DNA of 64,000 nt from Sulfolobales archaeon. Its GTDB lineage: Archaea > Thermoproteota > Thermoprotei_A > Sulfolobales > Desulfurococcaceae. This document shows positions 1 to 1,314 of this stretch, in pieces. A program made the position numbers and the translations under genes. The notes beneath the pieces are model-generated. The model did not search any database, was not told where the DNA came from, and saw only the letters and a list, made by a program, of their open reading frames with translations. The stretch covers positions 1-64,000 of the forward strand of contig JANXDZ010000005.1 of the NCBI GenBank assembly GCA_025059075.1, in the 5' to 3' direction. Every line of letters begins with the position of its first letter. Position 1 is the first letter of the stretch.

Positions 1-239
1 GTGGAGACAGGCCTTGTGTAATCTATGTGCACTAACTTAATGAAGCTGCCGTCGTGGCTGTACTTAAGTTCATAGCTTGTTAGAGATACGTAGCCCTCGA
101 TGAATCCAGTGAAAGCTAGCTGGGGAGCTAGGAGAACTACGATGTAGATCAGTGAAGATATTGTGCAAGCTGCTCCAGCAAATACGGTAAGCAACCTAAG
201 TCTACTTGAGAGCTCTACTTTACTAGTAGCCTCAGCCAA
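1..239 (-). CDS. Truncated membrane/secreted protein of the surface cluster
   Basis: An open frame runs from a TTG at 239 to the left edge with no stop, so only about 79 N-terminal residues are visible. They hold a charged start, one long hydrophobic segment (about residues 17-42) and then a polar stretch. This fits a signal anchor or a cleaved signal peptide followed by an extracytoplasmic domain. The frame overlaps the end of the signal-peptidase gene by 25 nt on the same strand, which suggests co-transcription and a role in the same surface system. I do not recognise the family. The start is the only start-type codon I see that fits the frame before an upstream stop. Confidence 0.55.
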   Translation of the reverse strand, partial: MAEATSKVELSSRLRLLTVFAGAACTISSLIYIVVLLAPQLAFTGFIEGYVSLTSYELKYSHDGSFIKLVHIDYTRPVS

Positions 240-1144
240 TGCTCACTACCCCAAGCTATGTAGTATACATCTACGTAGATGTAGGCTGCACTAGGTGGTT
301 GAATAAGTAGCTTCTCAAATCCCCCTACTACAACTGTTTGATTAAGTGCTCTCCAGCTTTCACCAGGTCTATGTGCGTATAGGAAAGTTATGTTGAATGC
401 TATTGGATAGCAGTTTGGGTTCTCTATTACTAGAGTAGAGTTCTCAACTCTAATGCCTGGCTTATGCCAGCTTACTCTAGCTTCATATTCACCCCTAAGT
501 ACACCAGCGTTGTTTAACTCAGCGAAAACACTTATGCGCAGATGCTCACCCTCTTCAACTGCATGGCTTATGAGTTGAATTGGTGGTTTAGCAACTACGT
601 AGGTCTCATTGAAGTATGCTTCAACGCTAACTTCATTAACGCGTACAGCAGCATTCATTAAGTAAAGCTGGCCAACGTACTTCACGACTACGCTGCACGT
701 AGATGAATCAAAGCTTACGCTAGATAAATGCAGCCTCGGCAGCTCAATGGCTTGCTGCACTGGAGGTGGAGGCACTACTGCATATACAGCGATTAAGTAC
801 AGTAGAGCTGTAGCTAAAGCTACTACATAGGAGTAGCCGATGAACCTAGCTCTAGCAAGATCGTTGAAAGCCACTAGTAGGGCTAGTAGGAGTATGGGGA
901 TCCATAGTTCTCTAGGAGCAGTGAATAAGACTACGCCTCTAACTGCCTTCATAGGTATAGGGTTGTCCTCAAATGGATTTGCATCACCCTTCGTAACTAT
1001 GTAGTCATCGTTATACTCCCAAACCCTTAGAAACCTATGTACAATGCAGTAGTTGGGAGTAGAACACCAGACAACAATATCTCCAATAAAAGGCTCCTTA
1101 TTAAAGTAGAAGACGAGGTCGCCCTGCCTAAGGGAGGGCTCCAT
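215..1144 (-). CDS. Signal peptidase I (Sec11/SipW type) with large C-terminal extracytoplasmic domain
   Basis: From the ATG at 1144 the protein is 309 residues. It begins with MEPSLRQGD, the core of the S26B signal-peptidase motif, followed by an IVHRF histidine (H36) and a TKGDANP aspartate box (D54). Two membrane segments (about residues 78-92 and 100-120) lead into a roughly 190-residue beta-rich, Asn-glycosylatable extracytoplasmic domain not found in ordinary signal peptidases. The catalytic serine of this family is the residue just before M in the S-M-x-P motif. It is encoded immediately upstream of this ATG, where the frame continues open to 1282 and encodes a membrane helix ending in YSSS. 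The true start must therefore lie upstream, but no ATG, GTG or TTG exists there. The gene probably processes the secreted protein encoded just before it. Confidence 0.8.
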   Translation of the reverse strand: MEPSLRQGDLVFYFNKEPFIGDIVVWCSTPNYCIVHRFLRVWEYNDDYIVTKGDANPFEDNPIPMKAVRGVVLFTAPRELWIPILLLALLVAFNDLARARFIGYSYVVALATALLYLIAVYAVVPPPPVQQAIELPRLHLSSVSFDSSTCSVVVKYVGQLYLMNAAVRVNEVSVEAYFNETYVVAKPPIQLISHAVEEGEHLRISVFAELNNAGVLRGEYEARVSWHKPGIRVENSTLVIENPNCYPIAFNITFLYAHRPGESWRALNQTVVVGGFEKLLIQPPSAAYIYVDVYYIAWGSEHWLRLLVK

Positions 1145-1267
1145 ACTACTGGAGTAGACAATAGAAATACCAGTGAATACAAGTAAGTTAAACCTTGAGA
1201 GAGTAGTGAAGGCTAGGAGGACTGTAAAGAAGACTAGAATAGAGCTAGAGAAGAGGGATGGAGCGCG

Positions 1268-1277
1268 TTTAAAAAAA
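1268..1277 (-). promoter_or_regulatory. Candidate TATA box for the signal peptidase gene
   Basis: Read on the minus strand, a T-run followed by AAA forms a TATA-like element. Archaeal transcription would start about 25 nt downstream, near 1240. That falls inside the open frame that encodes the missing N-terminal helix of the signal peptidase, close to an in-frame ATT at 1240. This would be compatible with leaderless translation from a non-standard codon. The position is inferred from base composition only. Confidence 0.35.
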
Positions 1278-1314
1278 GCTTTCTAAGCTTACAGACACCA
1301 TCGCTCAACTACCT

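Follow-up and report, generated by a model that had tools for sequence, protein, structure and literature searches.

How does a signal peptidase (SPase) come to be translated when its reading frame holds no start codon ahead of the catalytic serine? The question arises at one end of the window (the whole 64,000-nucleotide stretch of Sulfolobales DNA that was analyzed), where a minus-strand SPase frame of 355 codons is open from position 1282 to 218 and ends in a stop codon at 217-215. Upstream, the frame is closed by a TAG at 1285-1283 and, further on, by a TAA at 1291-1289. The 46 codons between 1282 and 1145 encode KAFFKRAPSLFSSSILVFFTVLLAFTTLSRFNLLVFTGISIVYSSS and include no ATG, GTG or TTG, and the ATG at 1144 encodes the methionine of the S-M-E-P box (YSSS-M-E-P) that carries the S26 serine. 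The initial annotation had described both this 46-codon open frame without a start and the position of ATG 1144 at the methionine of S-M-x-P, downstream of the serine and an N-terminal helix; re-reading of the DNA, the family match and alignment of relatives described below bear out both, and structure prediction agrees.

The encoded protein matches the archaeal signal peptidase I family TIGR02228 with 60.7 bits (curated cut-off 51.85) over residues 15-122 of the SPase frame. Across seven SPase orthologues S46-M-E-P, H82, D100 and D106 are invariant, so that the serine and the His/Asp residues of a SEC11-type enzyme lie in one frame, and a profile built from the seven orthologues matches SEC11C/SEC11A. 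A canonical in-frame start ahead of the catalytic serine, which is an expectation for any intact TIGR02228 member rather than a family-defining trait, is absent between TAG 1285 and position 1144. The 46-codon upstream segment is read as coding because of the TIGR02228 match and because the SPases of relatives align over the segment upstream of 1144; judged from these comparisons, the upstream codons form part of the SPase, and a working enzyme could not start at ATG 1144. Gene callers that choose this ATG would annotate a peptidase without its catalytic serine. In an AlphaFold model of the open frame (mean pLDDT 79.7), a first helix at residues 2-30 precedes the catalytic domain, helices at residues 124-144 and 150-168, and a β-rich C-terminal domain at residues 184-355. 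The codon score of the 46 upstream codons is approximately zero per codon and hence uninformative, which is probably due to the membrane helix. The frameshift rate of the assembly was judged from ~84 kb, in which, of the 72 genes scored, only one other has its first start preceded by at least 20 open codons, and these carry no coding signal. The same genome also encodes a second SPase that has its own start (L002). As a separate observation, the β-rich domain (residues 184-355; window 218-733) is confidently predicted (pLDDT mostly ~90), follows two extra helices and lies outside the S26 match.

The SPase gene is the second in an operon with the order filament subunit, SPase, membrane protein. 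Directly upstream and in the same unit, a minus-strand gene at 1315-1920 encodes a 201-residue protein with a signal peptide and a β-sandwich, and downstream the membrane protein gene (1-239, minus strand; TTG 239 as listed start) continues beyond the end of the contig. The initial annotation missed an ATG in another frame, at 1301-1299 on the minus strand, that is preceded by a Shine-Dalgarno (SD) sequence. This ATG lies 13 nt past the stop of the filament gene and one base out of the SPase frame. The SD, GAGGT at 1315-1311, stands 9 nt ahead of it and overlaps the TAG (1317-1315) of the filament gene; its duplex energy of -7.2 is within the range of operon-internal genes in the window, and 5% of random 16-mers reach -7.0. 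ATG 1301 is likely to be the SPase start, an assignment favored because nearly all relatives place their SD-linked start at +12 to +14 relative to the end of the filament gene. From ATG 1301 the sequence reads ATG GTG TCT GTA AGC TTA GAA AGC TTT TTT TAA, a 10-codon leader frame (MVSVSLESFF; 1301-1269, minus strand) whose TAA at 1271-1269 falls inside a T run, and over the same bases the SPase frame reads AAA GCT TTT TTT AAA CGC. The start frame must accordingly enter the SPase frame within 1286-1269 (minus strand), after TAG 1285-1283 and before the end of TAA 1271-1269. The T run itself, T7 at 1277-1271 on the minus strand (U7 in the mRNA), lies 37 nt past the filament gene stop. Since the lysine of the K-x-FF motif (KAFF) is already in the SPase frame ahead of the T run, the break could lie at AAAGC instead of T7. 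Two other origins were considered, namely that TAG 1285 is a mutated TTG start, and that translation starts at TTG 1308 and slips by -1 at U UUU UUA, for which the SD of TTG 1308 is too close.

To place the T tract in context we compared 13 loci (the window, L032-L035, L037-L040 and L097-L100). Alignment had yielded seven good loci, and wider searches at the order, class and phylum levels and around L097/L100 brought in L032-L040 and L097-L100, after which no further loci emerged; a single-protein scan of genome contigs for close relatives gave no match, and a search of viral contigs gave none. The relatives include, by name, Desulfurococcales and Ignisphaera MAGs. A T5-T9 run is located 22-52 nt after the filament stop in all 13 loci, and in 12 of them it comprises at least six T; of 400 control genes, drawn from 11 of the genomes in this set, four have a run of at least six T within their first 75 nt. 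The window itself has no second T7 in its 60 kb of called coding sequence, and T5-T6 runs are also present in the gap between filament and SPase genes in three loci of other clades (L026, L027 and L015). The run mostly encodes Phe-Phe, and every Phe-Phe pair at the locus begins with TTT, as compared to 40 of 171 in control genes; the product over nine genomes, 9e-6, is too small because the loci share ancestry, and we do not take it at face value. The relatives' SPases are just 35-40% identical to that of the window, so that these synonymous codon choices are not simply inherited. This pattern suggests that the U-tract is under selection as RNA. No conserved RNA structure was detected flanking the tract when the loci were compared at this position (z between -1.8 and 1.7). 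The T tract is thus kept at one place across 13 loci, whose sources range from Desulfurococcales to MAGs of Bathyarchaeota and Nezhaarchaeota, and it is at this place that the frame breaks repeatedly.

The SD-linked start is in frame with the SPase in L034 (with a weak SD), L037, L038, L039, L040, L098 and L099, and L033 has in-frame starts slightly farther downstream, giving eight loci with in-frame starts. It is out of frame in five: the window (+1), L064/L100 (+1), L032 and L035 (both -1) and L097 (-1). In a FastTree phylogeny, these fall at four separate places (the window, L032 with L035, L064/L100, and L097). Every in-frame canonical start is absent in the window and L064 only, which reduces to one locus when the window, chosen as anomalous, is left out; L097 retains an in-frame GTG at +2, and in L032 and L035 the in-frame starts fall within the filament gene and lack an SD (energies 0.8 and -1.9). 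The tract is T7 in the window and in L032/L035, and T6 in L064 and L097. Two pairs of relatives are informative. L097 and L098 encode identical SPases and are separated by a T-run indel (T6C versus T9) that shifts the frame, so tract length does differ between close relatives, as phase variation predicts. L032 and L035 share the same out-of-frame layout, and their SPases, which are 5.5% apart, differ by no indels in 359 codons with a dN/dS of 0.37 (Fisher p=2e-4). The filament gene is intact in L035, a sequence identical to L062 that stems from a contig with a coverage of 125. We also observed that a 1-nt change relative to L035 breaks the frame of the filament gene of L032 (genome G079), leaving just 83 codons open to the stop.

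Four explanations for the missing start were weighed. The initial annotation had proposed a non-standard start at ATT 1240 on a leaderless mRNA, transcribed from a TATA-like element at 1268-1277. T7AAA does resemble a TATA box, with roughly the spacing from ATT 1240 that this model needs; these bases are, in fact, the T7 run (1277-1271) followed by AAA, which encode Phe-Phe-Lys. A protein initiated at ATT 1240 would also lack the basic FF segment shared by most orthologues, and the ATT itself occupies a transmembrane column that is I/V/F/L in relatives (ATT, GTT, TTT, TTA, ATC and GTG). With an SD-linked start upstream, at the position used by relatives, and the gene in second place in the filament operon, a leaderless transcript is unnecessary. 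A start at ATT or another near-cognate codon of a leaderless transcript is therefore very improbable, and ATT 1240 was rejected on account of its non-conserved column. The same annotation had also allowed for a frameshift upstream, and this option gains support from the T run in 13 of 13 loci and from the frame breaks in four clades. Its third option, a sequencing error, belongs with the reading as a plain indel, which would be either an error in the MAG consensus or a loss of function that arose recently by mutation of a dispensable SPase. The assembly is a MAG of 19 contigs and 92% completeness, homopolymers are prone to indels, the second SPase could make this one dispensable, and the broken filament gene in the L032 assembly indicates that errors or decay occur in such data. 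We nonetheless regard a plain indel as rather unlikely, though a serious rival, as frame breaks recur in four clades, the out-of-frame L035 is on a well-covered contig and has an intact filament gene, none of ten suspicious neighboring ORFs checked in the window proved to be frame-broken, and the conserved T tract is left unexplained.

Alternatively, the T tract or its edge may gain and lose bases at replication, switching the SPase, and with it filament maturation, ON and OFF at the DNA level, such that the assembly captured an OFF lineage. The indel between L097 and L098 (the latter with T9) beside identical SPases, the scatter of out-of-frame states over the tree and the location of the gene in a surface-filament operon, a classic target, are all consistent with phase variation. 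The 5' ends of prokaryotic genes are enriched in poly(A)/poly(T) tracts (PMC2831843), and Bifidobacterium pili switch through replication slippage in a G-tract (PMC9187656). However, T6-T7 is short for a hypermutable tract, and a fast switch is not expected to leave L032 and L035 in the same out-of-frame state despite 5.5% divergence of their SPases, which makes a DNA-level switch improbable in our judgment, though it too is a serious rival. The remaining explanation, which we tentatively consider the best, is that a U-tract selected at the RNA level lies within the start of the ORF, and that slippage of the polymerase or the ribosome joins the two frames. It is ranked first because L032 and L035 have kept the out-of-frame state while the SPase stayed under constraint, which is not expected of a dead or fast-switching gene. 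The eight loci with in-frame starts and the limitation of a strict absence to the window and L064 argue against slippage of either kind. Ribosomal slippage is further opposed by a direction of shift that is not conserved and by the lack of a stimulatory structure: programmed frameshifting would call for one direction, whereas the shift is +1 in the window and L064 and -1 in L032, L035 and L097, with the other relatives in frame, and no conserved fold was found downstream of the tract.

Slippage at the U-tract could operate as follows. The tract, as a functional RNA element 22-52 nt past the filament stop, would resemble a leaky archaeal U-tract terminator, so that filament mRNA is abundant and SPase mRNA scarce. 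A minority of transcripts would carry a one-U slip made by RNA polymerase pausing on the U-tract, and this would join ATG 1301 to the SPase frame. As a second choice, the ribosome may slip on UUU UUU, where tRNA-Phe could regain pairing with UUU after a shift forwards or backwards. Little SPase would then be made, in an amount that depends only weakly on the precise length of the tract in the genome; this would account for a frame relation that drifts between relatives next to an intact SPase body. We know of no instance of an archaeal RNA polymerase slipping on T7. In archaea, U-tracts do serve as terminator signals (PMC8716108), and E. coli RNA polymerase slips on T7/T8 at ~5-10% of an in-frame control and needs T7 or more (PMC6260861); with this requirement, polymerase slippage is compatible with the T7 loci, whereas the T6 loci (L064 and L097) fall short. 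The broader proposition that, in several archaeal lineages, a U-tract at the start of a dedicated SPase gene acts as both leaky terminator and slip site, with SPase made solely from slipped transcripts or in ON-phase cells, is doubtful. If true, the locus would represent the second documented frame-recoded cellular gene of archaea or the first known archaeal homopolymer switch of a surface filament, and it may offer cells a means of adjusting the amount of the abundant filament protein relative to its maturing peptidase.

Related systems have been described. According to a 2021 review, fucA1 of Saccharolobus solfataricus, which was proven by translation, is the single instance of programmed -1 frameshifting reported from archaea (PMC8211752). 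Like the window, fucA1 is an archaeal gene whose start and body are in different frames that meet at a homopolymer-rich slippery site (A-AAA-AAT); it differs in using a -1 shift, a 40-nt overlap, a stem-loop and rare codons, whereas the window would need +1 (or -2), has no detected structure and is described from its sequence. Transcriptional slippage on A/T runs is established in Thermus dnaX and in Buchnera/Blochmannia (PMC5009743), as well as in the E. coli reporters cited above, and a T7-T9 run can similarly give mRNAs that have gained or lost one base and thereby regain the frame. The established bacterial cases mostly involve ~9 A/T, while the tract here is T5-T9 in an archaeon and slippage is putative. 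Bacterial surface-filament genes that are frame-interrupted at homopolymers are known (PMC9187656, PMC3711429), and the ON/OFF switch of the Bifidobacterium breve sortase-pilus locus likewise combines a surface filament with a one-frame homopolymer interruption whose length varies between relatives; there the tract is of G and lies in a bacterial pilus locus, whereas here it is of T, is located in the operon's SPase gene, and is known to vary between relatives only. No archaeal surface structure with a proven homopolymer switch was encountered in a literature search. With its conserved T tract and repeated frame breaks, this archaeal SPase would extend both the known bacterial switches and the fucA1 frameshift, and the locus is a concrete target for work on archaeal frameshifting and homopolymer switching.

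The filament subunit was characterized by structure prediction (pLDDT 85.6) followed by Foldseek comparison. The best matches of the model are the Sulfolobus thread protein Saci_0406 (7pnb; E 1.9e-7, TM 0.56/0.61) and the Pyrobaculum bundling pilus AbpA (7ueg; E 3.3e-5, TM 0.47/0.51), and from this fold match we assign the product of gene 1315-1920, with moderate confidence, as a putative donor-strand filament subunit of the thread/AbpA/TasA type, although it shares only 17-18% sequence identity with 7pnb and 7ueg. The subunit gene adjoins the SPase gene in L003-L008, the wider relative set, L098, L100, and the Nezhaarchaeota and Bathyarchaeota MAGs. Bacillus TasA is cut by a dedicated SipW peptidase (PMC10269814), and a filament protein with a peptidase of its own therefore has precedent. 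The operon thus has in common with 7pnb and 7ueg the fold of the upstream protein, and with TasA-SipW an SPase beside the filament gene; unlike in TasA-SipW-type systems, the SPase here has the two extra helices and the β-rich C-terminal domain. The second genome of this genus (G001; L020/L048) has as its best match only a distant SPase paralogue with 32% identity, so that the operon looks patchy even within the genus. The third gene (L062:4056-6194; L098:497-1519, minus strand; window 3-239) encodes a membrane protein and, after it, another N-terminus resembling that of a filament subunit (ASxxFAYxPxxLS...P), and from this sequence it is possibly a fused minor subunit or anchor. The structure search with the filament subunit also returned CanA of the Pyrodictium cannulae (9hdi) at rank 31 (E 7.9e-3), a match between predicted and known folds that hints at a broader family of archaeal surface polymers.
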